A model generated the notes under the pieces. It made no database searches. It saw only the letters and a list, made by a program, of their open reading frames with translations, and was not told the origin of the DNA. Of a stretch of 50,010 nucleotides of DNA, positions 23,022 through 39,232 are shown one piece after another. The stretch spans positions 1-50,010 of the forward strand of contig CALHIV010000001.1 in NCBI GenBank assembly GCA_938030895.1, in the 5' to 3' direction. Every line of letters starts with the position of its first letter. Positions within the stretch are counted from its first letter, which is position 1. The stretch is from an uncultured Nitrososphaerales archaeon (GTDB taxonomy: Archaea > Thermoproteota > Nitrososphaeria > Nitrososphaerales > Nitrosocaldaceae). Position numbers and translations under genes: made by a program.

Positions 23022-23076
23022 GAGATCTATCTATATAATATATAATTATAGGCATGTTAGGATAGATTAGGGTAGA

Positions 23077-23217
23077 ATGATAGCATCTGTACTGGTTAGG
23101 CTTGCAGTAATGACCAATAACAAACCAGTGCAGATAAAGATGCTGATACTGTTTATGCTAGTTATATGTTATATAATACCCATCATACACACCTCTGGTA
23201 GAGTTATATATTATTGA
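23077..23217 (+). CDS. Possible 46-residue membrane peptide
   Basis: A short frame starting at the ATG at 23077 would encode a peptide with one hydrophobic helix (MLILFMLVICYIIPII). It fills about half the 258-base spacer between sufC and the HemQ-like gene. An AT-rich TATA-like stretch lies near 23033-23046. There is no clear ribosome site and I do not recognise the sequence, so it may be chance. Confidence 0.2.
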   Translation: MIASVLVRLAVMTNNKPVQIKMLILFMLVICYIIPIIHTSGRVIYY

Positions 23218-23279
23218 TAAGTAGAGATCATAGTAGAATAGAGTAGAGTAGAGGAACAGATCATTCATCCCTTTCATGT

Positions 23280-24041
23280 ATGATAAGCAGTAAGGTAAAT
23301 ATGTCTATACGTACTCTAGCAGTACGTATGAGTAATGTACAGAGCAGCGCCCAAGCCAATGCTCAGTACTTGACCCAACATACATTCTTCAACTTCTCAT
23401 TCTTCAAGGTTGATCAGAAGTGGAGATGGCTCAATGATCTTACAAAGCAAGAGTCAGCAAAGGAGTTCATCTCCATACTTGAGTCAGCATCCTCAGATAA
23501 TGTAAGGTACAGATCATACTCTCTAGTTGGTTTAAGGGAGGATGCGGACTTTATGCTCTGGTTTGCATCAGATACAATAGATAAGGTTCAGAACGTAGTA
23601 GCAAGGTTGTACAGAACCGTTCTAGGCAAGTACATAAATCCAGCATATGTATACATCTCTGTACTCAAACCCTCTACATACACAGGTAAGGCAGAGTCAT
23701 CATTCCTAAAGGGCGAGAAGCCATGCAAGTATGTTGTTGTATACCCATTCATAAAGAGTAGAGAATGGTATCTCTTACCATTTGAGGAGAGGAAGAGGAT
23801 GATGGAGGAGCATGCTATGGTTGGTAGAAGATTCCCTATGGTAAGGCTCAACACATCCTATTCCTTCGGGCTCGACGATCAGGACTTTATGCTTGCATTT
23901 GAGACAGATGATATATATGCGTTCCATGAACTCGTTATGCAGTTGAGGGAGACACAGGTCAGCAGGTACGTTGTTAAGGATACCCCTATGCTAGTAAGTA
24001 TATATAAACCAATAGAAGAGGTGATAAGGGACATTGGCTAA
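23280..24041 (+). CDS. hemQ: HemQ/chlorite dismutase-family protein, likely coproheme decarboxylase
   Basis: Full-length member (253 residues) of the Cld/HemQ fold. The family core is clear: YVVVYPFIKSREWYLLP, ERKRMMEEH and SYSFGLDDQDFMLAFE. By alignment from memory with bacterial HemQ, Tyr155 and Lys159 match the catalytic Tyr-Lys pair and His178 matches the heme-binding histidine. True chlorite dismutation is unlikely in this context. The neighbours (AhbAB, SirC, HemA-D) make oxidation of coproheme to heme b the best guess. The first 30 residues look unconserved, so the real start may be one of several internal ATGs (for example residue 8 or 17). Confidence 0.85.
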   Translation: MISSKVNMSIRTLAVRMSNVQSSAQANAQYLTQHTFFNFSFFKVDQKWRWLNDLTKQESAKEFISILESASSDNVRYRSYSLVGLREDADFMLWFASDTIDKVQNVVARLYRTVLGKYINPAYVYISVLKPSTYTGKAESSFLKGEKPCKYVVVYPFIKSREWYLLPFEERKRMMEEHAMVGRRFPMVRLNTSYSFGLDDQDFMLAFETDDIYAFHELVMQLRETQVSRYVVKDTPMLVSIYKPIEEVIRDIG

Positions 24042-24069
24042 TGTCATCAACACTAAAGGTAACAATGTG

Positions 24070-24642
24070 ATGGACTGGCATGCACTCAAGGAATGGGCTA
24101 TAGTAGTTAGAGCAGTTGAGCAAGGCAAGCATTTCATCCTATTCAGGAAGGGTGGTATACTGGATGATGGGTTCTCTGTAGCAAGCAATCAATTCCTGTT
24201 ATTCCCAACATTCGAGCATCAGAGTAAGCAGTACATAAAGGATGAGTACAGGTTAGAGTATGATGCGCTAGAGGTTCATGCCCCAGTCGATAAGGTTGTG
24301 ATAAGGTCTGCAGCAAGGGTAGCATCTTACTATGAGAGTGGTGACAAGGCTAAACTACTCAGTCTCGATAGATACCATATATACAACGATCTATTCATAG
24401 ACTACAGGATGCAGTGGAATAGAGATAAGCCTGTTAGTGTCATGCTCGTTAGAGCCTATAGGCTTGAAGAACCAATAGTCCTTGATATGGCTGCAGAGTA
24501 CTATGGGTGCAGATCTTGGATAAGGCTCAGAGATACAGGGTTGAAGATTAAGATAGATAAACCGATAGTTGATGACTATACGTTTGAGCATATAAAGAGT
24601 AGTGTAGATAAGATAATGAGTATGGATGGAGGGGCGAGTTAG
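24070..24642 (+). CDS. DUF1802 family protein
   Basis: A 190-residue soluble protein with the DUF1802 look: ALKEWAIVVRAVEQGKHFIL, FRKGGILDDGF and FLLFPTFEHQ. The function of this family is not known to me. I start it at the ATG at 24070, preceded by AAAGGT; the frame is open back to a TTG at 24034, overlapping the hemQ stop. It sits between the hemQ-like gene and an aldo/keto reductase with almost no spacing, so all three are probably one transcript. Whether it takes part in heme synthesis is inference from position only. Confidence 0.85.
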   Translation: MDWHALKEWAIVVRAVEQGKHFILFRKGGILDDGFSVASNQFLLFPTFEHQSKQYIKDEYRLEYDALEVHAPVDKVVIRSAARVASYYESGDKAKLLSLDRYHIYNDLFIDYRMQWNRDKPVSVMLVRAYRLEEPIVLDMAAEYYGCRSWIRLRDTGLKIKIDKPIVDDYTFEHIKSSVDKIMSMDGGAS

Positions 24643-24644
24643 TG

Positions 24645-25634
24645 ATGAGGTATAGAAGGTTAGGTAAGAGTAACATACTAGTCTCTGAGATAGGCTTTGG
24701 TGCATGGACCATAGCACTAGATTGGTGGGGTAAGAAGATTGATGATGATTATGCAGTGAAGATGCTCAAGCATGCATATGATCTTGGCATAAACTTCTTC
24801 GATACTGCAGATATATACGGTAAGGGTAAGAGTGAGATGCTGATAGCAAAGGCATTCAAGGATATGAGGGATGAGGTTGTGATATCAACAAAGTTCGGCT
24901 ACGATATCTACTCTAATGTAGAGCAGATAGGGCATAGTGAGTTACCTCAGAGGTTCGATGCCAAATATGCTAGATACGCTTTAGAGAAGAGTTTAGAGCG
25001 TTTAGAGAGTAGTTATGTGGATGTGTTTAACCTTCATAACCCAAAGATGTATGCATTAACACACAACCCATTGTTCCTTACACTAGAGCAGTTGAGGGCA
25101 GAGGGGAAGATAAGGCACTACGGTGCTGCCCTAGGTCCAGCGATAGGATGGAAGGATGAGGGTATATATGCAATGGAGAGGAGAGGCATCACTGCTCTAC
25201 AGACCGTATACAATATACTGGAGCAGGAGCCAGCAAGGCAGTTCTTCCCCTATGCTAAAGCAAACGATGTTGGTATACTGGTTAGGGTACCAGATGCATC
25301 TGGAGTGCTCACAGGTAAACTAACACCAAATACACATTTGGATAAGAACGATCATAGAGCGTTTAGGAAGAGAGCATGGATAGAGGAGGCTATAAAGAGG
25401 CTAGAGATCCTCAAACCGATAGCAGATGCAAAGGGATGGAGCATAAACGAACTTGCTATAAAGTTCATCCTATCGGAGCAGTGTGTATCATCTGTACTAC
25501 CAACGGTAACCAGCATAGATGAGTTGGATTCCTATGCAGCGATCTCAGATGGCAAGTATCTCAGCAGTGATGAGTTGAAGGCAATAAGCGAGATGTATGA
25601 TAAGGACTTTGTAATGCTACAGAGCATACAATGA
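24645..25634 (+). CDS. Aldo/keto reductase
   Basis: NADPH-dependent oxidoreductase of the AKR barrel family (329 residues). The catalytic tetrad is present: Asp53 and Tyr58 (DTADIYGKGKSE), Lys83 (ISTKFG) and His131 (FNLHNP). The N-terminal MRYRRLGKSNILVSEIGFG is typical of the group that includes YajO/Tas-like reductases. The start is the ATG three bases after the DUF1802 stop, preceded by GGAGGGG. Substrate unknown. Its operon with a HemQ-like gene is unusual, but I know of no AKR step in heme synthesis. Confidence 0.93.
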   Translation: MRYRRLGKSNILVSEIGFGAWTIALDWWGKKIDDDYAVKMLKHAYDLGINFFDTADIYGKGKSEMLIAKAFKDMRDEVVISTKFGYDIYSNVEQIGHSELPQRFDAKYARYALEKSLERLESSYVDVFNLHNPKMYALTHNPLFLTLEQLRAEGKIRHYGAALGPAIGWKDEGIYAMERRGITALQTVYNILEQEPARQFFPYAKANDVGILVRVPDASGVLTGKLTPNTHLDKNDHRAFRKRAWIEEAIKRLEILKPIADAKGWSINELAIKFILSEQCVSSVLPTVTSIDELDSYAAISDGKYLSSDELKAISEMYDKDFVMLQSIQ

Positions 25635-25691
25635 TAGTAAAAGTCTATCAAGCCTCTCTTCTCCATGATGCTATCTCCAATTCTACCAGTT

Positions 25692-26714
25692 CTATCTGGA
25701 GCCAAGATAGTTATCCTCTACGAAGTACCTAACCCTCTCCTTCTTGAATTCCCTGGTTGAGAATAGTATCCTGTACTCATCTATGCCAATGCGAGAAGCA
25801 AACTCCCTTGCTATACCCTCACACACCTCCCTACTCCTTGCATGGACCATACTGTAGAGGTTGTATGGCCAGTCTGGATATGTTGGTCTCCTATAGCAGT
25901 GTGTAACCTGAGGGAATGAAGCAAGTAGCGTACCAACCTCATCTACCCTTGCCTCTGGAACTATCCATACTATCATCCCATTGGCTATGAATCCTGCATT
26001 CCTATGCCTTAGTATTGCTGCAAACCTGCGCATAACACCTATACTCTCATAGTACTTTGCTCTAGCAAGATACTCCTCAACACTTACCCCAAGCCTCTTC
26101 GCAGGTTCATCGAACGGTTCACTAACCACCTCTATATCCTTCTGCAACTCCCTTATGAACCTCTTATCGGTCTCATCTGGCTCAAAGTTGGTATATGTAA
26201 CAGGCCTTGTATTGGCTTCTGTTGGCTTGATATCTATCGAGTCATCATCGCCACTCATATCTAGTCTAACGCCTATCTTATACAACTTTACTGTAGGTAG
26301 TATCATGTACCTCTTAACCCCCTCTAAGCTGGCGAACCTCTCAACCTCATGCTTGACATTACCGTATGGGGGCACTGCTATAGTGAACCATAGATTATAG
26401 TTTGCATCATCCCTCTCGTAGTTATGGCTAACGCCAGGATGCTTATTTACTGCCTCTGCCACATCTTCTATCCTATCTTCTTCTACACTCATTGCAACTA
26501 GAGCACTCTTGTACTTTAACCTCCTGGTATCGAATATCGCATCTATCTCCCTTATTATCTGCCCATCCTTGAGCCTCCTTATTCTTGATATAACCTCCTC
26601 TTCGCCTATACCTAACCTCTCCCCTATAGCAAGGAACGGCCTTCTAACTAGAGGGAACTCCCACTGTATTATGTTGAGTATCTCTCTATCAATCGCATCG
26701 AGTTGTTGTAACAT
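25692..26714 (-). CDS. ahbAB: Fused siroheme decarboxylase AhbA-AhbB
   Basis: Two Lrp/AsnC-like units in one 340-residue chain. The first (about 1-160) has a helix-turn-helix, then a RAM-type domain containing HNYERDDANYNLWF. The second (about 180-335) repeats the plan with THCYRRPTYPDWPYNLYSM. These His-Tyr-Arg and YNL motifs mark AhbA and AhbB, which together remove two acetate carboxyls from siroheme to give 12,18-didecarboxysiroheme. They are normally separate proteins forming a heterodimer; here they are fused. It would often be misannotated as an Lrp regulator. It is divergent from the tetrapyrrole operon at 26856 and adjacent to the HemQ cluster, which supports the assignment. A TATA-like box lies near 26738-26748. 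Confidence 0.88.
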   Translation of the reverse strand: MLQQLDAIDREILNIIQWEFPLVRRPFLAIGERLGIGEEEVISRIRRLKDGQIIREIDAIFDTRRLKYKSALVAMSVEEDRIEDVAEAVNKHPGVSHNYERDDANYNLWFTIAVPPYGNVKHEVERFASLEGVKRYMILPTVKLYKIGVRLDMSGDDDSIDIKPTEANTRPVTYTNFEPDETDKRFIRELQKDIEVVSEPFDEPAKRLGVSVEEYLARAKYYESIGVMRRFAAILRHRNAGFIANGMIVWIVPEARVDEVGTLLASFPQVTHCYRRPTYPDWPYNLYSMVHARSREVCEGIAREFASRIGIDEYRILFSTREFKKERVRYFVEDNYLGSR

Positions 26715-26818
26715 ATATCTTCTATACCATTCTTAGCAGTGTTTAATATTGGTAACTGTATATGATCTACCGTTACCATCTAACTATACAGTTAGCCAGT
26801 TAGTACTATGGCTCAATC

Positions 26819-26826
26819 TATAAATA
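26819..26826 (+). promoter_or_regulatory. TATA box for the tetrapyrrole operon
   Basis: TATAAATA 30-37 bases before the TTG start at 26856. It supports the TTG as the real start and marks the likely head of the seven-gene run. Confidence 0.5.
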
Positions 26827-26855
26827 AGATGCTAGCATATGCTAGATGAGTCATC

Positions 26856-27539
26856 TTGATAGTTGACCTCAACATCCAGGGCAAGGATATTCTGGTCATA
26901 GGTGCTGGCGTTGAGGGTACTAGGAAGGTTAGAGCATTACTTGGTCAGGGTTGTAAGAGTATAATTGTTATGAGCAGTAGGTTCAACAGATCTCTGCTAG
27001 ATCTTGCAAGGGAAGGCAAGATAACCCTGATTAGGAAGAGCGTAAAGGATGCATCTATACTCGATGAGTTCGGAGGGGAGAGACCATTCATAGTCATGGC
27101 AGCAACCAATGATAGATCATTGAATAGAGGTATAGTTGAGAAGGCTAAGGCTATGGGCATACTTGCATATGCTGCAGATGACCCAGCGATAAGCGACTTT
27201 ATACACCCTGCTGTTATAAATATCCATGACACACTATTCATCGCTATATCAACTAGAGGGAGTAGCCCTGCTATGGCAAGAGTTCTAAGGATAAAGGCTG
27301 AGAGGGTGCTCAAGAGGCTTATAAGGGAAGAGGATATAGAGATGATAAGGCTAGCAGATTATGCTAGGAGCATGGCCATGAAGCATATAAACGATATCCA
27401 TGCTAGAAAGGATTACATATACTCAGTTATAAAGGATAGGGAGATAGTAGAGATGCTCAAGGTTAAGAGGTTTGAAGAGGCTAAAGCAAGGGCTCTAAGC
27501 CTATTGAGTAGTTATAGTTATGGGGGTAATGTTGAATGA
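26856..27539 (+). CDS. Precorrin-2 dehydrogenase (SirC/Met8 type)
   Basis: NAD-dependent oxidation of precorrin-2 to sirohydrochlorin; related Met8/CysG proteins also insert iron. The Rossmann motif is VIGAGVEGTRKV near the start. The family signature with the catalytic aspartate is in AADDPAISDFIHPAV. 227 residues, usual length. Start is TTG (ttgatagttgacctc), supported by a TATA box and by the expected DLNIQGKDILVIGAG opening. The stop overlaps the hemA start by four bases (ATGA). It leads the operon that makes siroheme from glutamyl-tRNA. Confidence 0.9.
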   Translation: MIVDLNIQGKDILVIGAGVEGTRKVRALLGQGCKSIIVMSSRFNRSLLDLAREGKITLIRKSVKDASILDEFGGERPFIVMAATNDRSLNRGIVEKAKAMGILAYAADDPAISDFIHPAVINIHDTLFIAISTRGSSPAMARVLRIKAERVLKRLIREEDIEMIRLADYARSMAMKHINDIHARKDYIYSVIKDREIVEMLKVKRFEEAKARALSLLSSYSYGGNVE

Positions 27540-28924
27540 CGAAGAAGCATATCCTTAATGCTAGGGTAACTTACAAGAGCATACCTATACATATGCTTGA
27601 GCGCTTCACATTCAAGGATACAGCAACTGTGTACAAGATGAAGGATAGGTACAAGTTGGATGAGCTCATCATAGTCCAGACATGCAATAGGGTAGAACTC
27701 TATGCAGTAAGCAGTGATGTTGATGATCCCTCATCCTTACTAGATATATGGTTAGAGCACCTCAACCTCGATAGATCTATGCTTGAGAAGAGTGTAGAGT
27801 TGGGCAAGGAGAAGGATGCAATACACCATCTATTCAGGCTTGCATCTGGGCTTGACTCACTCGTAGTAGGGGAGGATCAGATACTTGGGCAAGTGAAGCG
27901 TGCATTAGATAATGCAAGGAGGAGTAATGCAGTTGGAATGTACTTAGGCATGCTATTCGAGAAGGCTGTGAGGGTTGGGAGCAAGGTTAGGGCAAACACA
28001 AACATAAACAAGGGGAGCATCTCATATGGCTCTATAGCGATTAGACTCGCAGAGGAGTACCTCCATGGGCTTGATGGGAGTAAGAGGATAATGTTGATAG
28101 GCTCAGGAGAGGCAGCTGCCATGGTAGCAAAGCCCCTCCTCAACAAGGGTATAGAGTTCCTGGTGACGAGTAGAACCACGGCTAGGGCAAGGGCATTCTC
28201 TGAGAGCATTGGTGGTAAACCAATAGAGTTTGAATATGCTATGCAGGAGGAGTTGAGTAATATCGATGTGCTGTTCATAGCTACTACAGCACCATACTGG
28301 CTCATAACATATGAGAGGATGGTAGAGGTTATGGAGAAGAAGGGTCGTATCAGTAAAGAGAGAGGGATGGGGAGGAGAGGCTATATCTATGAGAATGATG
28401 GGAGAGGGTATAGGGATGAGCAAGCACGACTACTCATAGTGGACCTCTCCAATCCAAGCACTGTAGAACCTAGAGTAGATAGCATAGATGGTGTGAAGGT
28501 AATAAGGTTCGATGAGATATCAAGTATGGCAGAGAGGAACATCACTACAAGGATGCAGGAGGTTAGTGAGGCTGAGCGTATAGTTAGAGAGGAGGTAGAG
28601 GCTATGGAGTCTAGGTTGAGGAGGTTCGAGGTCGAACCTATAATAGACTCGCTCTTTAGGAGTGTAGATAGGGTAAGAAAGAGGGAGTTGGATAAGGCGC
28701 TGAGTATGCTCAAGATAGATGAGAGTAGCAGACAAGTCGTTGAGCAGATGAGTTATGCCATAGTTGAGAGCATACTATCCATACCTATGGATGAGTTGAG
28801 GAAGGCATCAGAGCGTGGAGATGTGGAGTTGATAAAGGCTGCTAGTAGGCTATTCAAGTATGATCTAGAGGTGGAAGAGCAGGAGGGAAGGAAGAGCATG
28901 GAGATGAGTGCAGAAGAGAGATAG
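27536..28924 (+). CDS. hemA: Glutamyl-tRNA reductase
   Basis: First committed step of tetrapyrrole synthesis: glutamyl-tRNA(Glu) to glutamate-1-semialdehyde using NADPH. The catalytic cysteine is Cys50 (VQTCNRVEL). Also visible are the substrate-binding GLDSLVVGEDQILGQV, the NADPH domain (IMLIGSGEAAAM) and the C-terminal helical dimerisation domain. At 462 residues it is somewhat longer than average because of an insertion near 275-300 (GRISKERGMGRRGYIYENDG). Translationally coupled to the upstream gene; hemB follows after 29 bases. Confidence 0.96.
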   Translation: MTKKHILNARVTYKSIPIHMLERFTFKDTATVYKMKDRYKLDELIIVQTCNRVELYAVSSDVDDPSSLLDIWLEHLNLDRSMLEKSVELGKEKDAIHHLFRLASGLDSLVVGEDQILGQVKRALDNARRSNAVGMYLGMLFEKAVRVGSKVRANTNINKGSISYGSIAIRLAEEYLHGLDGSKRIMLIGSGEAAAMVAKPLLNKGIEFLVTSRTTARARAFSESIGGKPIEFEYAMQEELSNIDVLFIATTAPYWLITYERMVEVMEKKGRISKERGMGRRGYIYENDGRGYRDEQARLLIVDLSNPSTVEPRVDSIDGVKVIRFDEISSMAERNITTRMQEVSEAERIVREEVEAMESRLRRFEVEPIIDSLFRSVDRVRKRELDKALSMLKIDESSRQVVEQMSYAIVESILSIPMDELRKASERGDVELIKAASRLFKYDLEVEEQEGRKSMEMSAEER

Positions 28925-28953
28925 AATAAAGTAAGGTATGATAGAATGAGGGG

Positions 28954-30033
28954 ATGTATATGCACGATCCACAACCTCAACCCCAAAGATCATCCTCATC
29001 GCCTCAACCACTAGATCTCTCTATGAAGGTTATGGATGTAGATGGCTCAGTATCACTATTCCCATCCCCAAGGCTTAGGAGGCTTAGGAGGAGTAATGCA
29101 ATAAGGCATATGCTTAAAGAGAGTAGGATAGATCTAGAGAGTCTTGTATACCCTGTATTCGTGCAGGATGGTATAAGAGGTAAGGAACCCATCCAGTCGA
29201 TGCCAGGGTTGAGTAGGCTTCCCCTCTCAATGCTAGTAGATGAGGTTAGAGATCTGATCGATCTAGGCATAAGGGCAATCCTACTATTCGGTATACCAAG
29301 CAGGAAGGATGAGTATGCATCATCAGCATATGATGACTCTGGTATAGTGCAGAGGGCAGTATCAGCACTAAGGAAGGAGTTCAATAGCGATGACCTTACG
29401 ATAGTAACTGATGTATGTACATGCCAGTACACAAGCCATGGCCACTGTGGGATGCTCAAAGGTAACAGGATAGATAATGATAGTACTCTTGATATCTTGG
29501 CAAAGATAGCGGTTAGCCATGCCAATGCTGGTGCAGATATAGTTGCCCCCTCAGCAATGATGGATGGTCAGGTGAAGGCAATAAGAGATGCGCTGGATGA
29601 TCACGGATTCAAGGATACCCTTATAATGTCATACTCTGCAAAGTACTCTTCATCCCTCTACACCCCGTTTAGAAGTGCAGCAGATTCAGCACCAAGGTTC
29701 GGGGATCGTATGAGTTACCAACTATACTATGCGAATGCTAGAGAGGCAATGAGAGAGATAGAGCAGGATATACTTGAGGGTGCTGATATAGTTATGGTGA
29801 AGCCAGCTATAGCATATCTGGATATCATAAGGCTTGCAAGGGATAGGTTCAAGCATCCGTTGGCAGCGTACAGTGTCTCTGGAGAATATGCACTGGTAAA
29901 GGCAGCCTCATTGCAAGGCCTAATAGATGAGGATGCTGTGATCATGGAGTTGTTAACGTGTATAAGGCGTGCTGGTGCAGATATAATAATAACGTACTTT
30001 GCAAAACAGGTAGCAGAGATAACAAACAAGTGA
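28954..30033 (+). CDS. hemB: Porphobilinogen synthase (delta-aminolevulinic acid dehydratase)
   Basis: Condenses two 5-aminolevulinate molecules to porphobilinogen. The active-site lysines are Lys230 (SYSAKYSSS) and Lys283 (MVKPAIAY). The zinc site is Cys155, Cys157 and Cys165 in DVCTCQYTSHGHC, so it is the zinc-dependent type. The first 30 residues (Pro/Gln/Ser-rich) are an extension beyond the usual start near FPSPRLRRLRRS. A later start is possible, but ATG at 28954 is preceded by a GAGGGG ribosome site. Confidence 0.96.
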   Translation: MYMHDPQPQPQRSSSSPQPLDLSMKVMDVDGSVSLFPSPRLRRLRRSNAIRHMLKESRIDLESLVYPVFVQDGIRGKEPIQSMPGLSRLPLSMLVDEVRDLIDLGIRAILLFGIPSRKDEYASSAYDDSGIVQRAVSALRKEFNSDDLTIVTDVCTCQYTSHGHCGMLKGNRIDNDSTLDILAKIAVSHANAGADIVAPSAMMDGQVKAIRDALDDHGFKDTLIMSYSAKYSSSLYTPFRSAADSAPRFGDRMSYQLYYANAREAMREIEQDILEGADIVMVKPAIAYLDIIRLARDRFKHPLAAYSVSGEYALVKAASLQGLIDEDAVIMELLTCIRRAGADIIITYFAKQVAEITNK

Positions 30034-30095
30034 TGTGCTTGTTAAGCACTATAAGATAAATAAAATTATAGAGCATTATAGCATATGATTGTGAT

Positions 30096-31421
30096 ATGCG
30101 AAGATCCTCTAGGATTGGAGAGATCGGTAGCGAGAGTATTGGTGATGCTAGCGTCAGACTCTTTGATAAGGCTTCAAGGCTAATGGTTAAAGGTGTAAAT
30201 AGCCCTATAAGGTACTTTGAGCCATACCCATTCTTCGTTAAGCATGCTAGAGGATGCAAGGTCTACGATGTTGATGGGAGTCCATACATAGACTACTGTA
30301 TGGGCTATGGGGCACTACTCCTTGGGCATGCATTCAAAGGCGTTATAGATGCTGTTAGGGCACAGTTAGCAAGAGGTTCTCTATACTGTATACCAAGTGA
30401 GCATGAGGTTGAACTTGCAGAACTACTCAATACCTGCATACCATGTGCAGAGGCTGTGAGGCTTGTTAACACTGGTATGGAGGCTACCTATCATGCGATA
30501 AGGATAGCAAGGGCATACACGAGGAGGAGGAAGATCGTCAGGTTTGATGGCTGTTACCATGGCTCCCATGATTACACTCTAGCAAGGAATAACATGGATA
30601 GAGACGCTAGAGTAGATAATGCTATACTCGATTGCGTTGCAGATAACACCTTGGTTCTTCCATATAATGATCCAGATGCCTTGAAGGATCTGATGCAGAG
30701 GGAGGGTAACGATGTTGCCGCAGTTATAGTAGAACCTGTGATGGCAAATGCTGGACTGATACCTCCAGATCCTGGATACCTTGCTACATTGAGCAGTATA
30801 TGCAGAGAGTATGGCTCATTGCTCATATTCGATGAGGTCGTTACAGGGTTCAGACTTGCATTGGGGGGTGCACAGGAGTACTATGGTATCAAACCGGATC
30901 TGGCAACATTTGCAAAGGCTATGGCTAATGGTTTTGTGATAGCATGTATTGCAGGTAGAAGGGATGTCATGAGCGTACTTGCACCAGAGGGTAGATTGTA
31001 TCAAGGTAGTACCTTTGCTGGCAACCCTGTCTCTGTCACTGCATCAATAGCAACCATAAGGTATCTAATCAGGCATAGATCACTCTACAAGATTATAGCA
31101 GAGAGGTGCAGTAGATTGGCAGATGCGGTGAAGGACATCTTACATGATAGAGGTCTTGAGGCTATAGTCCATAATATTGCATCGATGCTACAGGTATTCT
31201 TCACTGATAAGGATGTTAGAGACTACGCTACAGCAAAGAGATCAGATACAGGACTCTTCAAGTTGTACTTTAAAGCACTGCTCAAGCAGGGCGTATTCAT
31301 ACCACCATCGCAGTTCGAGGTCTGCTTCCTATCACTTGCGCATAGCGATGCAGTAATAAGGGATACTGTGGAGAGGATGGATAGAGCGATAAGAGAGTTG
31401 GGAGAGTTGAGCAAGGGTTGA
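30096..31421 (+). CDS. hemL: Glutamate-1-semialdehyde 2,1-aminomutase
   Basis: PLP enzyme converting glutamate-1-semialdehyde to 5-aminolevulinate (441 residues). The PLP lysine is Lys274 (TFAKAMANG) and the cofactor aspartate is in LLIFDEVVTGFR. GSTFAGNPVS matches the family's phosphate-binding loop. The position between hemB and hemC strongly supports hemL over other class III aminotransferases, though the segment after the lysine (FVIACIAG) is divergent. A TATA-like stretch (GATAAATAAAATTATAG, about 30055-30071) suggests an additional internal promoter. The stop overlaps the hemC start by four bases. Confidence 0.93.
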   Translation: MRRSSRIGEIGSESIGDASVRLFDKASRLMVKGVNSPIRYFEPYPFFVKHARGCKVYDVDGSPYIDYCMGYGALLLGHAFKGVIDAVRAQLARGSLYCIPSEHEVELAELLNTCIPCAEAVRLVNTGMEATYHAIRIARAYTRRRKIVRFDGCYHGSHDYTLARNNMDRDARVDNAILDCVADNTLVLPYNDPDALKDLMQREGNDVAAVIVEPVMANAGLIPPDPGYLATLSSICREYGSLLIFDEVVTGFRLALGGAQEYYGIKPDLATFAKAMANGFVIACIAGRRDVMSVLAPEGRLYQGSTFAGNPVSVTASIATIRYLIRHRSLYKIIAERCSRLADAVKDILHDRGLEAIVHNIASMLQVFFTDKDVRDYATAKRSDTGLFKLYFKALLKQGVFIPPSQFEVCFLSLAHSDAVIRDTVERMDRAIRELGELSKG

Positions 31422-32350
31422 GGCTACTGGTAGGGAGTAGAGGCAGCAGACTCTCATTGGTGCAGACTGATCACGTACTATCACTCCTTAAGGGCATCGA
31501 TGATAGCCTAGAGTTTGAGGTGGTTGCGATAAGAACGAAGGGGGATATCGATGCTAGACCGCTCTACAAGATAGATGGCAAGGGTGTATTTGAGAAGGAG
31601 GTTGACCAAGCAGTGCTCTCTGGCAATGTGCACTTTGCTGTGCATAGCATGAAGGATGTGCCATCGGATCTCCATGATGATCTCATCATAGCATCGGTAC
31701 CTAAAAGGGATAGCCCTTATGATATGTTGATATGCAAGGGCAATGGTAGCCTCATGAGCCTCCCAAGCAACAGTATAGTAGGCACTAGTAGCCTTAGGAG
31801 GTTAGTACAACTCAAGAGGGTTAGAAGCGATATAACTGTCAAGCCGATAAGGGGCAATATAGATACAAGGCTAGCAAAGATGCTAAATGGTGAATATGAT
31901 GCAGTAGTGTTAGCTGAGGCTGGGCTCTCTAGGCTAGGGTTATCAGGACTCTATATGGGTGAGAGGCTAAGCAAGGATATCATGATGCCAGCTCCTGGAC
32001 AGGGTGCGCTGGCAGTGGTAACAAGGAAGGATAGCACTGAACTTATAAGGCTCTTGAAGAGGATAGAGGATAGAGCATCAAGGGCAGAGATCGATGCTGA
32101 GAGGATGTTGTTGAGGATGATGGATGCTGGATGCAGGATGCCTCTAGGCGCACTCGCTAGAGCCCATCCCTCAAATCTGCTCACTCTAGAGGCATGTATA
32201 CTATCTATAGATGGTAAGCATGTTATAAGAGCAGGGTTATCATCAAGCATGGATGATGCTGAAGGATTGGGAGCAAGAGTTGCCAGATCCCTAATGGAGC
32301 AAGGGGCATCAAGCATATCTGAGGAATGGAGATCGATCCCACTAGAATAA
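31418..32350 (+). CDS. hemC: Hydroxymethylbilane synthase (porphobilinogen deaminase)
   Basis: Joins four porphobilinogens into hydroxymethylbilane. The dipyrromethane cofactor would be attached at Cys239 (MMDAGCRMPLGAL); the catalytic aspartate is Asp80 in HSMKDVPSDL. 310 residues, normal. The start is TTG, overlapping the hemL stop as TTGA; the following codons (RLLVGSRGSRLSLVQT) are the canonical beginning of the family, so the TTG is well supported. Confidence 0.96.
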   Translation: MRLLVGSRGSRLSLVQTDHVLSLLKGIDDSLEFEVVAIRTKGDIDARPLYKIDGKGVFEKEVDQAVLSGNVHFAVHSMKDVPSDLHDDLIIASVPKRDSPYDMLICKGNGSLMSLPSNSIVGTSSLRRLVQLKRVRSDITVKPIRGNIDTRLAKMLNGEYDAVVLAEAGLSRLGLSGLYMGERLSKDIMMPAPGQGALAVVTRKDSTELIRLLKRIEDRASRAEIDAERMLLRMMDAGCRMPLGALARAHPSNLLTLEACILSIDGKHVIRAGLSSSMDDAEGLGARVARSLMEQGASSISEEWRSIPLE

Positions 32351-32410
32351 ATTGATGAATTATATGTTTGCTCTGCCATCGCTATATACCATCTAGCAGG
32401 TGAGTTGGTT

Positions 32411-33217
32411 ATGAGTAGTACAGGTGATGAGGAGTTGGGTAGTACAAGTGGTAAGAAGGGCAAGGTATACATAGTAGGCTCTGGTCCAGGGGATCCAGGG
32501 CTACTAACTCTCAAGGCACTAAAGGTTATAGAGCAAGCAGATGTCGTACTCTACGATAGACTTGTAAGCGATGATATACTTGCACTTATACCTGAGCATG
32601 TAGAGAGGATTTATGTTGGTAGAGATGTTGGAGATGACTATGCACATCAGGATACAACCAATACGCTGATGCTCAAGTATGCCAAAGAGGGTAAGATGGT
32701 TGTAAGGCTGAAGGGTGGGGACCCATTCATATTTGGGAGAGGGGGTGAGGAGGCCGAGTTCTTGAGAGAGCATGGCGTAGAGTTTGAGATAGTGCCTGGG
32801 ATAACATCTGCGATAGGTGCACCAGCATACGCTGGTATACCCCTAACCCATAGATCCTACTCATCCTCTCTAGCAATAGTGACTGGGCATGAGGATGCTA
32901 TGAAGGATAGGCAGAGGGTAGATATAGTAGGTATAGCAAGGGCTGTAGATACAATTGTGGTACTGATGGGGGTATCAAACCTCAAGAGTATAGTAGATAC
33001 GCTCTTGAGCAATGGTATGCAAGAGGATACAGGCATTGCTATAATAGAGTATGGAACGATAAGAGGCAAGCAGAGGGTTACAATATCAGACCTTAAGCAT
33101 GTACTGGATGATGCAGGTGATGTTAAACCTCCTGCTGTGATAGTGATAGGGGGGACTGTCAAGTTGGCAGAGAAGTTGAGATGGTATAAAGAGGGTGTGT
33201 ATAGGTTATTCAGGTAG
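32411..33217 (+). CDS. cobA: Uroporphyrinogen-III C-methyltransferase
   Basis: Adds two SAM methyl groups to uroporphyrinogen III, giving precorrin-2, the branch point to siroheme and cobalamin. SAM-binding motifs are VYIVGSGPGDPGLLTLKA, VRLKGGDPFIFGRGGEE and VPGITSAIGAPAYAGIPLTHR. I start it at the ATG at 32411, preceded by GGTGAG; a TTG at 32405 is also in frame. About 18 residues precede the methyltransferase core. hemD begins seven bases downstream. No CysG-type fusion: dehydrogenase and methyltransferase are separate here. Confidence 0.95.
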   Translation: MSSTGDEELGSTSGKKGKVYIVGSGPGDPGLLTLKALKVIEQADVVLYDRLVSDDILALIPEHVERIYVGRDVGDDYAHQDTTNTLMLKYAKEGKMVVRLKGGDPFIFGRGGEEAEFLREHGVEFEIVPGITSAIGAPAYAGIPLTHRSYSSSLAIVTGHEDAMKDRQRVDIVGIARAVDTIVVLMGVSNLKSIVDTLLSNGMQEDTGIAIIEYGTIRGKQRVTISDLKHVLDDAGDVKPPAVIVIGGTVKLAEKLRWYKEGVYRLFR

Positions 33218-33224
33218 ATACTAT

Positions 33225-34145
33225 ATGGGAATAGCAAGCAAGAAGGGGAAGGATAGGAAGGGGGAGAATAAGAAGGAGAATAAGAAGGAGAAGGAGAAGG
33301 AGAAGAATATATTAGTAACGAGGAGTAGCAGATGGGAAGATACTGCTAGCATAGATAGCGATAGCGGTAGCGAGATATACACTCTAATTACAGCCTTGAA
33401 GGGTAAGGGGTACAATCTGATACTCCATAAGACTATAGATGTTGTAAGGGATGATGAGAAGGTAGCTAAGGCATTAACAAGGCTGCTATCATCAGACTAC
33501 AACTTTATAGTATTCATGAGTGTTAGTGCTGTAAGGTTCATGCTCGATGCTATGAGCAGTAACAGCCTTGATCCTAGCATCTTGAATAGGTACAATGTCG
33601 TTGCTGTAGGCCCAAGCACTAGGGACGAATTGATTAGTAATGGGGTAGATGTAAGGTTCATCCCTCCAAGGTACTCCTCATATGGGCTCATAGAACTCTT
33701 CAGTTCCCTCAAGCATGATGAGAGGTATAGAGGGGCAAGGATATTCATACCTAGAAGTGGTGAGGCTACTAGCCTACTTGCTGATGCCCTAACATCTCTA
33801 GGCTTTAAGGTCGATGAGGAGTATATATACAGGATAGTGCCTAGCAGACATGAGGGATGGAAGGATGTTGTAGAACATCTTGTAAAAGGCAGTTTACACT
33901 ACATCATCTTCACGAGTTCATCATCTGTAAATGCCTTCTTCACTATACTGGATGAGTACTTGGGTAGGGATAAGGCTATAGATACTATTATGAGCAATGA
34001 TATTGTTACAATAGCGATAGGACCACTCACCTCCGATACACTGAAGGCCTATGGCCTTAGTTCTTATGTTGCCGATGAGCATACACTGCAAGGCACGTTT
34101 AAATTATTGCTAAAGATGATCGAGGATGCAGAAGATAATCTATGA
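33225..34145 (+). CDS. hemD: Uroporphyrinogen-III synthase
   Basis: Closes hydroxymethylbilane with inversion of ring D. The HemD fold is weakly conserved, but NILVTRSSRWED, YNFIVFMSVSAVRFML, VAVGPSTRDELISNGVDVRFIPP, IFIPRSGEATSLLADAL and HYIIFTSSSSVNAFF fit well, and its place after cobA agrees. The ATG at 33225 seems better than a GTG at 33195 inside cobA. The first 26 residues are almost all Lys, Glu, Gly and Asn (encoded by a purine-only stretch, 33238-33305), an added basic/acidic leader not expected for the family. Confidence 0.92.
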   Translation: MGIASKKGKDRKGENKKENKKEKEKEKNILVTRSSRWEDTASIDSDSGSEIYTLITALKGKGYNLILHKTIDVVRDDEKVAKALTRLLSSDYNFIVFMSVSAVRFMLDAMSSNSLDPSILNRYNVVAVGPSTRDELISNGVDVRFIPPRYSSYGLIELFSSLKHDERYRGARIFIPRSGEATSLLADALTSLGFKVDEEYIYRIVPSRHEGWKDVVEHLVKGSLHYIIFTSSSSVNAFFTILDEYLGRDKAIDTIMSNDIVTIAIGPLTSDTLKAYGLSSYVADEHTLQGTFKLLLKMIEDAEDNL

Positions 34146-34212: not shown

Positions 34213-35613
34213 ATGACTAGTCAAGATGTGATCAGGGATTACAGCAAGTACGACTTTAAGGACCCAGTAGATATGTATGTTTACATAAGCAGGAAAGGCT
34301 TATCGAGGGAGACTATAGAGGAGATAAGCAGGATAAAGAATGAGCCTGAGTGGATGCTGAAGTTTAGGCTCAATGCTTATGAGACGTTCTTGAAGATGCC
34401 AATGCCAAAGTGGGGAGGTGATCTCAGCAAGGTTGACTTTGATAACATCTACTACTATGCAAAACCAACGGATAAGAAGGGTAGGAGTTGGGATGAGGTA
34501 CCAGAGAAGATAAGGAACACATTTGAGCGTTTAGGCATACCAGAGGCTGAGCGAAAGTTCCTTGCTGGTGTTGGTGCACAGTATGAGTCTGAGACCGTAT
34601 ACCATAAGTTGAGAGAAGATTTAGAGAAGAAGGGCGTGATCTTCTGCGATACAGATACAGCATTGAAGGAGCATGAGGATATATTCAGGAAGCACTTCGC
34701 AAAGGTTGTACCCCCAAACGATAACAAGTTTGCAGCATTGAATAGTGCTGTGTGGAGTGGAGGCTCGTTCGTGTACATACCTGAGGGGGTTGAGGTGGAT
34801 ATGCCCCTTAATGCATACTTTAGGATAAATGCACAGAATATGGGTCAGTTCGAGCGCACACTGATAATAGCGGAGCCATACAGTAAGGTACACTATATAG
34901 AGGGATGCACCGCACCAATATACTCAACGGAGTCACTGCACTGTGCAGTTGTAGAGGTTATAGCAAAGAAGGGTGCAACTGTACGATACACAACGCTCCA
35001 GAATTGGAGTAACGATGTCTACAATCTAGTTACCAAAAGGGCATACGCTTACGAGGATGCTGTAGTTGAATGGGTCGATGCAAACATAGGTAGCAGGTTG
35101 ACCATGAAGTACCCCTCAGTATACCTTCTTGGCAAGAACGCAAGGGCAGATCTTCTAAGTGTTGCCTTCGCTGGTAAAGGGCAGCATCAGGATACTGGGG
35201 CGAAGGCTGTGCATCTTGCACCCAACACAACCTCAAAGATAATCTCAAAGTCAGTAAGCAAGGATGGGGGTAGAACATCCTATAGAGGTTTACTGCATGT
35301 TGCAAAAGGGGCAACCAATGTAAAGTCGACTGTAAGGTGTGATGCCCTCCTCGTTGATGAGATCTCTAGGACAGATACCTACCCATACATAGAGGTCAAT
35401 GAGGATGATGCTACGATTACCCATGAGGCAAGCGTAGGTAAGATAGGAGAGGATCAGATCTTCTACATAATGAGTAGAGGCTACACTGAGCAAGAGGCGT
35501 TGAGCCTCATAGTCTCAGGCTTCTTAGAGGTATTCACTAAGGAACTACCCATGGAGTATGCAGTAGAGTTCAACAGGTTGATAAAGATGGAGATGGAAGG
35601 GGCAGTAGGTTAG
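34213..35613 (+). CDS. sufB: SufB Fe-S cluster scaffold
   Basis: Core scaffold subunit of the SufBCD complex (466 residues). Conserved segments include [51 protein letters not shown] and the C-terminal [20 protein letters not shown]. Assembly takes place in the cytoplasm with SufC (encoded at 22233) and SufD. It has its own TATA box and heads the operon sufB-sufD-ferredoxin-sufS-sufU. Confidence 0.97.
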
Positions 35614-35678: not shown

Positions 35679-37121
35679 ATGAATATGAGCGATACATTAC
35701 CCATCTCATCTTTTGATGATCAGATCATAAAGAAGATCGGCTCAAGGTATAATGAGCCAGAATGGTTGATAGAGTCTAGGGTAAGATCACTCTATAACTA
35801 CAAAACACTTCCAGATGAGACATCTCCTCTCTTCAACAAGTATACTATAGCAAATATTCTAGATTCTAGCAGGTTTACAGTAGCACTCGATCTTACTACT
35901 CATGAGTTGGATGATGAGTTGAGAAGGAGGAGGGATGAGATAAGGCATGGCATAGTTATTACACAGATAGGTAAGAGCATAGAGGTTAAGGGTCTGAGTA
36001 AGAGCCTAGAGAGGGAGGGATTGGTTATAAGGGATGTTATGAGTGCACTTGCAGATAAGGAGTATGGAGAGATCATAAGGATAGCATCGAGCAGGATGGA
36101 TACCTCTGAGGATAGGTTCCTTGCATTAGAGCATGCGTTATTCAACTCTGGCCTCTTCATATACATACCAAGGGATATGGTACTCGATGAGCCTATAACC
36201 ATAATACGCTCATTACCATATGACTGCTCTATAGTTGAGAGGAATATAATATACGCTGGAGGGTCTAGTAGGGTAAGGATAGTACAGGAGCTTTATGCAA
36301 GGGATATCAATGATAGTGATGAGAGTAGGGATGCCATAAAAGAGGCATACTTTGAGTCTAATGAGTGCTATATAGCAGAGAATGCAGATGTAGAGGTTAT
36401 AACTACACAGGGGATGAGCGATGGTATAGCATACTTTACAAACAGGAAGGCATTCATAGCAAGGGATGCAAGGTTCAAGTCTTACCTAGGATTGTTTGGA
36501 GGCTCATTGAGTAGATGTAAGGTAGATAACATGCTGGATGGCTTTGGTGCAAACGCTGAACACTTTAATGTGCTCTTTGGTAGCAATGCTCAAGCATTCG
36601 ATGTTACAGCAAACATGATCCATCTGAAGGCAAACACCAGAGGCAGGGTTCTATCAAAGGCTATAGTTAGGGATACAGCAAGATCACTATTCAAGGGCAT
36701 GATAAATATAAAGAAGGATGGGAAGGGCTCAGAGTCCTATCTTGCTGGTCATGCTATACTACTCAACAAGGGTGCAAGGGCAGATTCGATACCAGCATTA
36801 GAGATAGAGACCAATGAGGTGAAGGCTACACATTCTGCATCAGTTGCACAGATGGATGAGGAGCAGATATTCTACATGATGAGTAGAGGTATGAGTAGGG
36901 AAGAGGCTAAGAGGGCAATAGTGTTTGGGTTCATAGAGCCATTACTCAAGAGGTTGAGTATCGATGCAAGGATATACACTATATACCTCGTAGACTGCAA
37001 GTGGAGAGGCAGACCATTGCTGCTTAGATCTGACGATGTGATGAGAGAGATATGGGAGGTTGAGGAGGAGTCTAGGAGGATAGAGAGCGATATATTCGAG
37101 AAGCACTACAAGTACAGATGA
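35679..37121 (+). CDS. sufD: SufD Fe-S assembly protein
   Basis: A SufB paralogue (480 residues) that pairs with SufB to form the scaffold. The typical C-terminal block is present (ATHSASVAQMDEEQIFYMMSRGMSREEAKR). The N-terminal half is much more divergent than SufB. An acidic segment near 205-215 (ARDINDSDESRDA) is an insertion. The stop overlaps the start of the next gene (ATGA), indicating coupled translation. Confidence 0.94.
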   Translation: MNMSDTLPISSFDDQIIKKIGSRYNEPEWLIESRVRSLYNYKTLPDETSPLFNKYTIANILDSSRFTVALDLTTHELDDELRRRRDEIRHGIVITQIGKSIEVKGLSKSLEREGLVIRDVMSALADKEYGEIIRIASSRMDTSEDRFLALEHALFNSGLFIYIPRDMVLDEPITIIRSLPYDCSIVERNIIYAGGSSRVRIVQELYARDINDSDESRDAIKEAYFESNECYIAENADVEVITTQGMSDGIAYFTNRKAFIARDARFKSYLGLFGGSLSRCKVDNMLDGFGANAEHFNVLFGSNAQAFDVTANMIHLKANTRGRVLSKAIVRDTARSLFKGMINIKKDGKGSESYLAGHAILLNKGARADSIPALEIETNEVKATHSASVAQMDEEQIFYMMSRGMSREEAKRAIVFGFIEPLLKRLSIDARIYTIYLVDCKWRGRPLLLRSDDVMREIWEVEEESRRIESDIFEKHYKYR

Positions 37122-37480
37122 TAGGGATAGATAATGATAAAGATAGGGATAGCAGTATAGATCGATTGGGTATGAACTGGATCAAGGTATGCAGTAGGCA
37201 TGATCTTAAGGAGAATGAGATACTTGGCATAGATTTTGATGGTATAAAGTTGATGCTAATCCTCCAGAATGATACCATATATGCCCTTGATAGGATATGC
37301 ACACATATGGATGCCGATCTTAGTATGGGCTTCCTTGCAGAAGGTGAGGTAACATGCCCACTACATCTATCAAGGTTTAGGCTTGAGGATGGTGTAGCAT
37401 TAAACCCTCCGGCAGATAAGCCATTGAGGAGATACAATGTTAAAATAGATGGCGATGATATATATGTGCAGGTGGGCTAG
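37118..37480 (+). CDS. Rieske-type 2Fe-2S ferredoxin in the suf operon
   Basis: A 120-residue soluble Rieske protein. The cluster ligands are Cys61/His63 (CTHMDADLSMG) and Cys80/His83 (CPLHLSRF). It lacks the extra disulfide cysteines of bc-type Rieske proteins and has no signal peptide, so it is a cytoplasmic ferredoxin like those serving dioxygenases or nitrite reductase NirD. The start codon overlaps the sufD stop by four bases and sufS begins three bases after its stop. It may donate electrons during Fe-S assembly, but that is inferred from position. Confidence 0.93.
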   Translation: MIGIDNDKDRDSSIDRLGMNWIKVCSRHDLKENEILGIDFDGIKLMLILQNDTIYALDRICTHMDADLSMGFLAEGEVTCPLHLSRFRLEDGVALNPPADKPLRRYNVKIDGDDIYVQVG

Positions 37481-37483
37481 TAG

Positions 37484-38785
37484 ATGCTAAGCATGTTAGA
37501 TATTGAGAGGATAAGGGCCGATTTCCCGATACTGGGTAGAAAGGTTAGGAATGGTAAGAGGTTGATCTACTTCGATAACGCTGCTACAACACAGAAGCCC
37601 AAGCAGGTTATAGACGCGATATATAACTACTATATGAACTACAATGCAAATATACATAGAGCAGTACACCAGCTCTCTGAGGAGGCCACTGAAGCATACG
37701 AGGGCTCGAGGGCAAAGGTTGCTAGGTTCATAAATGCAAAGAGTGATGAGATCATCTTTGTGAGGAATGCTACGGAAGCAATAAACCTTGTAGCATATGC
37801 GTGGGGAAGGGCAAACATAAGGGCTGGGGATACTATAGTGGTTAGCGAGATGGAGCACCACAGCAACATAGTGCCGTGGCAGATACTTGCTAGGGAGAAG
37901 GGAGCCAGATTACACTATATAAGGATAGATCATGATACCAACACGAGTAGAGATGATCATGAGAAGGGAGAAGGAGGAGATAGTGGTGGTGATGGCTCAC
38001 TCATACTAGATGATCTATATCATGCTATATCCCATGGTAATGTTAAACTACTCGCTATAAGCCATATGTCCAATGTCCTAGGCAATATAAACCCTGTCAA
38101 GGAGATGGTTGAGATATGTAGGGATAAGGGTATAAGGGTTCTAGTCGATGGTGCCCAATCCGCACCCCATATGCCAGTAGATGTTAAGGATATCGATTGT
38201 GATTTCTTTGCATTCTCTGCACACAAGATGCTTGGTCCAACCGGTGTTGGCATACTCTATACCAAAAGGGAGATACTTGATGCTATGGACCCATTCCTAG
38301 GAGGAGGGGATATGATAAGGGAGGTACACAAGTACGATGCGGTATGGAACGATCTCCCATGGAAGTTTGAGGCTGGTACACCAAACATAGCAGATGTTAT
38401 AGGTTTTGGGGCAGCAGTAGATTACCTTAATACAATAGGGATGGAGAATGTTAGGCTCTATGAAGATGAACTCACAAGGTATATGCTATCAAGGTTAACG
38501 GAGGTTAAGGGTCTGAGGCTCTATGGGAGCATGGATGCAGATAGACGTGGAGCGGTATTCTCATTCAACCTAGCAGATATACACCCTCACGATCTAGCAA
38601 CTATACTGGATGAGGATGGCATAGCGATAAGATCTGGGCATCACTGTGCCCAACCATTGATGGAGAGGTTAGGGGTTGCAGCAACATCTAGAGCAAGTTT
38701 ATACATATATAATACAAAGGAGGAGATAGACAGGTTCATAGACTCGCTAGAGAGGGCAAGGTTGATATTCAAGGTAGGAGGATGA
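37484..38785 (+). CDS. sufS: SufS-type cysteine desulfurase
   Basis: PLP enzyme releasing sulfur from cysteine for cluster assembly (433 residues). PLP lysine is Lys248 (FSAHKMLGPTG); the persulfide-carrying cysteine is Cys388 in RSGHHCAQP, the group II (SufS) form. A Gly/Asp/Glu-rich insert at about 151-171 is not part of the family core and probably forms a surface loop. The start (MLSMLDIERIRADFPIL) fits well. The downstream sufU is nearly contiguous. Confidence 0.96.
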   Translation: MLSMLDIERIRADFPILGRKVRNGKRLIYFDNAATTQKPKQVIDAIYNYYMNYNANIHRAVHQLSEEATEAYEGSRAKVARFINAKSDEIIFVRNATEAINLVAYAWGRANIRAGDTIVVSEMEHHSNIVPWQILAREKGARLHYIRIDHDTNTSRDDHEKGEGGDSGGDGSLILDDLYHAISHGNVKLLAISHMSNVLGNINPVKEMVEICRDKGIRVLVDGAQSAPHMPVDVKDIDCDFFAFSAHKMLGPTGVGILYTKREILDAMDPFLGGGDMIREVHKYDAVWNDLPWKFEAGTPNIADVIGFGAAVDYLNTIGMENVRLYEDELTRYMLSRLTEVKGLRLYGSMDADRRGAVFSFNLADIHPHDLATILDEDGIAIRSGHHCAQPLMERLGVAATSRASLYIYNTKEEIDRFIDSLERARLIFKVGG

Positions 38786-38788
38786 TTG

Positions 38789-39232
38789 ATGGATATGAGT
38801 AGTGCAGATATCTATAGGGAGATAATACTTGACTACTACAGGAACCCAAGGAACTATGGAAGGCTTGAGGCGCCAGATGTGGTAGTTAGGGATACAAATC
38901 CCCTCTGTGGAGATGAGGTTGAGATGCATATAAAGTTCGAGGATGGGAGGATAAAGGATATAAGGTTCAATGGCAAGGGCTGTGCTATAAGCCAAGCAAG
39001 TGCATCCATGCTCACAGAGATGGTTATGGGCAAGAGTCTGGAAGAGGTTAAAGGTTTAGGGAGACAGGATATATTGGAGGCTCTTGGCTTACCTAACCTT
39101 GGACCGGCAAGGATAAAGTGTGCTCTACTCTCTCTGAAGGTATTCAAACTTGGTATATACTCATACCTTGCAGAGAAGATTGGCGAGGATGAAGCCTCAA
39201 GCATAAAAGATGAGGCAACAAAGCTCTTTTAA
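38789..39232 (+). CDS. sufU: SufU/IscU-type Fe-S scaffold or sulfur carrier
   Basis: A 147-residue zinc/Fe-S protein that accepts sulfur from SufS. The three conserved cysteines are Cys40 (NPLCGDEV), Cys65 (GKGCAISQAS) and Cys111 (RIKCALLSLK), with Asp42 next to the first. Only 45 residues separate the last two cysteines, so it lacks the insertion of bacterial SufU and is closer to IscU in that region. The LPPVK chaperone motif of IscU is absent. Start at ATG 38789, preceded by GGAGGATGA overlapping the sufS stop. Confidence 0.93.
   Translation: MDMSSADIYREIILDYYRNPRNYGRLEAPDVVVRDTNPLCGDEVEMHIKFEDGRIKDIRFNGKGCAISQASASMLTEMVMGKSLEEVKGLGRQDILEALGLPNLGPARIKCALLSLKVFKLGIYSYLAEKIGEDEASSIKDEATKLF

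Follow-up and report, generated by a model that had tools for sequence, protein, structure and literature searches.

What does a small Rieske-type ferredoxin do in an archaeal suf operon, and which partner does it serve? The question is raised by a 50,010-nucleotide stretch of DNA from an uncultured Nitrososphaerales archaeon (hereafter the window), where a gene for such a protein lies between sufD and sufS. Cluster assembly depends on electrons. The accessible text of a 2021 review gives the electron donor to SufBC2D as unknown (PMC8593673), and a ferredoxin that stands beside sufD across archaea, recurs in some bacterial suf loci and is fused to SufD in one family is a concrete donor candidate to test. 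On balance, we think that the Rieske protein is probably a small, soluble carrier of electrons that works for SUF specifically and would dock on SufBCD at the side of SufD.

The suf locus of the window

The suf genes of the window all run on the forward strand. sufB (34213-35613; 711.8 bits against TIGR01980, cut-off 346.4) is followed by sufD (35679-37121), whose protein ends in FEKHYKYR and matches SUFBD_core at E 1.9e-58, with 211.2 bits against the sufD model TIGR01981, slightly below the cut-off of 222. Past the Rieske gene come the cysteine desulfurase gene sufS (37484-38785; TIGR01979, 590.8 bits, cut-off 475.1) and sufU, for a sulfur-transfer protein (38786-39232; TIGR01994, 119.6 bits, cut-off 92.5). 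sufC is absent from the operon itself; a frame for a sufC-like ATPase instead occupies 22233-23021 on the same strand, about 11 kb upstream of sufB, and its sequence, used as a query, matches the gene adjoining sufB or sufD in other loci at 48-60% identity. The neighbours of the Rieske gene are suf genes, and neither an oxygenase nor a reductase gene adjoins it. From the sufC-like gene through a run of tetrapyrrole genes to the suf block, the region 22233-34145 is on one strand; HemD and a tetrapyrrole methylase in this run are confirmed by Pfam and the remaining genes were read by eye, and hem genes adjoining sufB are common to the window and its relatives (for example loci L107, L168 and L172). 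The translation of the window's sufS (37484-38785), also read by eye, contains a Gly/Asp-rich low-complexity stretch.

The first-pass annotation described a soluble Rieske protein between sufD and sufS, overlapping sufD by four bases and separated from sufS by three. The protein and its place are borne out by the Pfam match, the four ligands and the flanking suf genes, and so is the downstream gap, with the Rieske stop at 37480 and the sufS ATG at 37484. The overlap is probably a start-codon artefact. It stems from the longest open frame (37118-37480, forward strand), which encodes 120 residues and holds both ligand pairs, CTH and CPLH, but no frame in the five congeners opens there. Four of the five do have an ATG at the end of sufD, followed in all four by a stop codon that interrupts the frame ahead of the Rieske sequence, and this ATGA recurs only because sufD ends in AGA-TGA; in the fifth, G005, the ATG is missing. 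Residues 1-18 of the long frame show no conservation in the congeners. Conservation starts at 37172, at an ATG common to all six genomes (the window's and the five congeners), which lies 50 bases past the sufD stop in the window and 21-66 bases past it across the six. The comparison makes M19 of the long frame the most likely start, giving a suf-linked Rieske [2Fe-2S] ferredoxin at 37172-37480 (forward strand), and the gene product is likely to have 102 residues and to start those 50 bases beyond sufD.

A Rieske ferredoxin with the predicted fold of oxygenase ferredoxins

The Rieske frame scores 63.6 bits against Pfam PF00355 (E 1.6e-17; gathering score 20.3) and 49.1 bits against PF13806. Its two Cys and two His ligands, in the CxH and CxxH motifs, are all intact, and the ligand positions are invariant across 30 aligned proteins. 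The AlphaFold2 model has a mean pLDDT of 96.5 and superposes on the dioxygenase Rieske ferredoxins 5bok and 2qpz with Foldseek TM scores of 0.95 and 0.96, the best twenty structures falling at TM 0.90-0.96 and rmsd 0.8-1.3 Å; 2qpz is also the nearest solved structure by sequence (E 1.3e-16). Ten NCBIfam models match the protein and none attains its cut-off, HcaC, AndAb, MocE, NirD and sulredoxin being among the families represented: the HcaC models score 81.6 against a cut-off of 113 and 78.2 against 150, and other named-ferredoxin models score 65.2 against 150, 61.3 against 136.15, 48.6 against 74.65 and 32.7 against 170. As far as this predicted anatomy shows, the protein would be a one-electron carrier. 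It is not an ISC-type Fdx: its ligands and fold are of Rieske type, and the Pfam scan gave no match to the four-cysteine Fer2 family (PF00111). ISC Fdx resembles the role we propose in delivering electrons to a cluster-assembly machine from within that machine's operon (PMC8593673, accessible text); it differs in having an unrelated fold, Fer2, with four Cys ligands.

Dioxygenase Rieske ferredoxins of the NdoA/BphA3/CarAc class share the fold, ligands and size of the window's protein. They differ at the residue two positions beyond the ligand His (H+2), which is Gly in the NdoA-type sequences compared and Ser (105 of 119) or Ala (14 of 119) in the suf-linked sequences that bear the motif, and in context, since the window's gene has no oxygenase or reductase neighbours and its relatives include SufD fusions. 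Ser at H+2 also occurs in 22 of 49 unlinked sequences (206 Rieske domains were reduced to 172 for this comparison), so it is not exclusive to suf-linked proteins and we rejected it as a marker of the suf link.

The main rival reading starts from oxygenase ferredoxins being the closest structures: the gene might encode a general-purpose ferredoxin that serves other redox enzymes and, as an Fe-S client, sits in the suf operon for co-regulation with cluster assembly. We regard this as unlikely in the window's archaeon, whose genome is 98.66% complete. No P450 match was found in it, and its five Rieske matches all fall in frames too short for an oxygenase (107-213 residues). Action only with an unrelated oxygenase, which the first-pass annotation had set against its own proposal, is therefore, judging by these P450 and Rieske-frame searches, unlikely in this organism. 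The single Fer2 match (24.4 bits, cut-off 21) belongs to a longer frame of 254 residues, and a free ferredoxin of the ISC (plant/adrenodoxin) type is thus not seen in this genome. Flavin reductases are represented by eleven Pyr_redox_2 matches, five of them strong and none on the window's contig. Elsewhere in the genome, at G000:C11:211323-212483, another small Rieske gene adjoins a Pyr_redox_2 flavoprotein gene on the opposite strand; the two are possibly a separate ferredoxin-reductase pair.

Distribution in the order

We searched 141 genomes of the window's order, 120 of which have SufB at E 1e-80 or better. By coordinates, 93 of the 120 carry a Rieske match less than 6 kb downstream of SufB on the same strand; this count used 132 Rieske match rows, with about 17 weaker second matches omitted (none near SufB), and 125 SufB rows, with further pieces of split SufB omitted. 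Inspection added eight genomes. In G341 the match is partial, in G350 it is broken and in G340 it is at a contig end; in G029 the Rieske gene and its neighbour sufD are on a contig separate from SufB; and in G307, G324, G328 and G336, whose SufB is likewise on a different contig, the Rieske gene is directly behind sufD with no adjoining sufS match. Absence from the suf operons of all relatives, which would have told against the first-pass proposal, is thus not what the order presents: the gene is beside sufD in 101 of the 120 SufB genomes. That it stays with sufD when sufB is on another contig speaks against a general-purpose ferredoxin.

Other genomes depart from this pattern. Contig ends leave the arrangement in G033, G319 and G041 unscorable. 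Four genomes of family f7 (G012, G043, G330 and G348) have a homologue 50-52% identical and away from suf genes, standing alone in G043, as a general-purpose ferredoxin might. The linked gene is missing in 12 of the 120: all six SufB genomes of family f8, each locus having been read, both of f13, and G021, G156, G204 and G240. The last three belong to family f9 and are 99% complete; they give no Rieske match at E 1e-13 and have sufD and sufS adjacent, which looks like gene loss. Since these twelve genomes manage without a linked gene, SUF can work without the Rieske protein, which is dispensable there. In two f13 loci, L086 and L087, two SufB-like genes follow sufC, and a clear SufD and the Rieske gene are absent. 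G050 has a second Rieske copy, preceded by a gene that by eye looks like a further ferredoxin. The presence of COX1, taken as an aerobic marker and searched for in the 141 genomes, does not track that of the Rieske gene (counts of 89, 15, 13 and 3 across the 120 SufB genomes, Fisher p 0.71, with Rieske presence scored from long-frame query matches and G341 scored absent), and we rejected this association.

Gene order in named archaeal loci

Scanning named genomes for motifs taken from suf-linked Rieske proteins gave 94 relatives, of which 80 loci were kept. sufD is the immediate upstream neighbour in 71 of these, followed downstream of the Rieske gene by sufS in 45, no gene in 21, sufC in three and sufU in two; of the rest, one has sufS downstream only and eight are unlinked. 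The query motifs came from suf-linked proteins and the scan partly overlaps the order search, so these figures describe the arrangement and are not an independent frequency. By title, the linked loci include Thaumarchaeota, Nitrososphaerales, Bathyarchaeota, Marsarchaeota and Thermoplasmata. Named loci such as those of Marine Group I thaumarchaeotes suggest that the window's order is that of the ammonia oxidisers. Of the order sufD-ferredoxin-sufS that had been put forward for checking, the upstream half holds well and the downstream half is variable.

This variability bears on whether the electrons might instead go to the sulfur side, to release persulfide from SufS/SufU as ISC ferredoxin does on IscS. 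The three-base spacing ahead of sufS in the window would suit such a role, as would three loci in the Thermomicrobium phylum, which we take to be Chloroflexota, with the order sufS-sufU-Rieske-sufT, where the Rieske gene is behind sufS-sufU rather than sufD. In archaea, however, the Rieske gene usually adjoins sufD, and fusions to SufD are the only ones found; sufC takes the place of sufS downstream in family f12 and in one Marsarchaeota locus, the four order genomes with SufB on another contig have no sufS match beside the Rieske gene, and the potential expected of a Rieske protein is mild. Delivery to SufS/SufU is the least probable of the readings we weighed.

The C-terminal HYKYR of SufD looked like a possible docking element for the Rieske protein. 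The motif is nearly invariant in archaeal SufD: where a Rieske gene is next to sufD it occurs in 49 of the 60 distinct tails, and where there is none, in four of six, but it is missing from all six distinct fused tails; as it persists without the Rieske protein it is not specific to it, and we rejected this role. In four of the loci (L131:2032-4548, L106:910-4527, L125:1992-4526 and L114:6286-8985) we noticed enlarged frames with inserts, of 839-1206 residues for SufB and, in one case, 900 residues for SufS. The two inserts tested, in L131 SufB and L114 SufS, match the Pfam LAGLIDADG domain and, at a score under its curated cut-off, the intein-splicing domain, and L106 SufB appears to contain two inserts.

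SufD-Rieske fusions

Six genomes of family f14, spanning three genera (G019, G032, G048, G301, G306 and G314), encode SufD and the Rieske protein in one open frame of 549-555 residues, as read from the DNA, and so does contig G009:C62. Pfam recovers both domains, and a model of one fusion (mean pLDDT 86.1) shows SufD joined to the Rieske domain by a disordered linker (431-444). The fusion on G009:C62 shares 84% identity with L162, an f14 fusion, and G009 has a second, unfused suf locus; this contig may have been misbinned. In G055 (L044) and G310 (L242), which belong to the genus of two of the fused forms, sufD and the Rieske gene share a frame and are separated only by stop codons, so the step from unfused to fused is short. 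Several Rieske matches had been assigned to frames of 521-559 residues; those in G115, G122, G246, G053, G313, G325 and G333 were rejected as fusions, their translations being separate genes, and translation likewise ruled out a Rieske-SufS fusion that frame arithmetic had suggested.

A physical link to a Suf protein thus exists in some relatives, although the window's own protein is unfused, and SufD is the only fusion partner found in the archaeal loci. Together with the absence of a P450 match, the fusions weigh against a ferredoxin for general use in this archaeon, not in Streptomyces. Taken with the Rieske gene's staying beside sufD when sufB is elsewhere, they make the strongest case for SufD, and hence SufBCD, as the partner rather than SufS. 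Proximity to SufD, as neighbour or as fusion, would also suit early loading of a cluster carrier or reservoir, in which a His-ligated [2Fe-2S] cluster assembled on SufBCD is handed to targets in place of SufA, an A-type carrier reported in accessible text to be absent in most archaea (PMC2946596). We consider this quite improbable, as the ligands and fold match those of Rieske ferredoxins that transfer electrons.

Bacterial suf loci and the Rieske tree

The association extends to bacteria. In the actinomycete Nonomuraea gerenzanensis, the translations give the row SufR-like regulator, sufB, sufD, Rieske, sufC, sufS, sufU, sufT, with the Rieske gene and sufT identified by Pfam; the suf operon of Tsukamurella has no Rieske gene. 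The Nonomuraea Rieske protein has matches at E 1e-13 in 57 of 101 genomes of the Thermomicrobium phylum, and 24 of the best 30 loci there are suf-linked, in varying gene orders. One locus of the phylum, L202:1-3285, holds a 546-residue frame with a C-terminal Rieske domain and no suf linkage. With synteny, SufD-Rieske fusions and these bacterial parallels in hand, the claim that the ferredoxin is embedded in the suf locus is strongly supported as an association.

In a tree of 108 Rieske domains (drawn from 206; 102 columns), the suf label clusters, with 13 changes compared with 33.8 in shuffles and none of 500 shuffles as low. Archaeal and bacterial suf-linked members lie apart, and oxygenase ferredoxins are placed among the bacterial ones. 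A single origin of the suf link was considered and dropped, as this tree fails to separate one recruitment from several.

Discussion

We propose that the [2Fe-2S] cluster of the Rieske protein would be reduced by a putative flavin reductase, that the protein would dock on SufBCD at the side of SufD, and that single electrons would then pass to the nascent cluster at the SufB-SufD site. They would most likely serve to reduce ferric iron or to couple [2Fe-2S] units reductively, rather than to free sulfur from SufS. We prefer reduction of iron or of the cluster to that of persulfide because Rieske potentials are mild: Rieske ferredoxins of the BphA3-type fold are near -0.15 V and ISC ferredoxin is near -0.4 V. 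The title of one paper calls BphF a low-potential Rieske ferredoxin. Against a carrier dedicated to SUF stand the twelve genomes without a linked gene and the four with a homologue elsewhere, as well as a fold and sequence that are those of oxygenase ferredoxins and the lack of an adjoining reductase gene. So do the mixing of bacterial suf-linked members with oxygenase ferredoxins in the tree, the three Chloroflexota loci where the gene is behind sufS-sufU, and the lack of association with COX1. A broader proposition is that across much of the order, and in parts of the phyla Chloroflexota and Actinomycetota, this protein is the physiological source of electrons that the SUF scaffold has lacked, docking on SufD and hard-wired as a fusion in f14; we put it forward tentatively, as plausible rather than probable. 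The natural fusion holds the two partners close together and at a fixed ratio, which makes it a convenient probe: in the presence of SufB and SufC, reduction of a forming cluster could be followed on a single chain. Annotation as an oxygenase ferredoxin in genomes of this kind may conceal a part in Fe-S assembly.

Streptomyces already offers a published case of a Rieske ferredoxin encoded within a suf cluster. SpFdx4 of S. peucetius, as described in the accessible text (PMC12979805), resembles the window's protein in being a Rieske-type [2Fe-2S] ferredoxin with Cys2His2 ligands whose gene belongs to a suf cluster, with which it is up-regulated; it has the expected spectrum and takes electrons from a ferredoxin reductase. 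It differs in being bacterial and in having been studied as a P450 redox partner, and our likening of the two is by description (PMC12979805). With SpFdR3 it drives the P450 DoxA (PMC12979805, same text), which supports the general-purpose reading directly, and in the literature surveyed, as far as its text was accessible, this sole characterised suf-linked relative was assayed with a P450 rather than with SUF. The open-access literature, which leaves subscription journals mostly outside, yielded no description of the archaeal suf Rieske protein, its spread or the SufD-Rieske fusions.

Another electron source proposed for SUF, according to accessible text, is FADH2 on E. coli SufBC2D, in a role given as unproven (PMC6006206); there the donor is a flavin bound to the complex, as opposed to a separate or tethered Rieske ferredoxin (PMC6006206). 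In the accessible part of another paper, a figure legend names fdx in both suf and isc clusters and the text puts fdx in isc (PMC9628965). Among archaeal proteins, arf (SSO2080) of Sulfolobus solfataricus is, by its accessible account, a Rieske-type ferredoxin strongly induced by H2O2, with a proposed role in stress metabolism (PMC2739297). It is like the window's protein in being archaeal and of Rieske type, a comparison made by description, and differs in that its gene is beside dpsl, outside a suf operon (PMC2739297).
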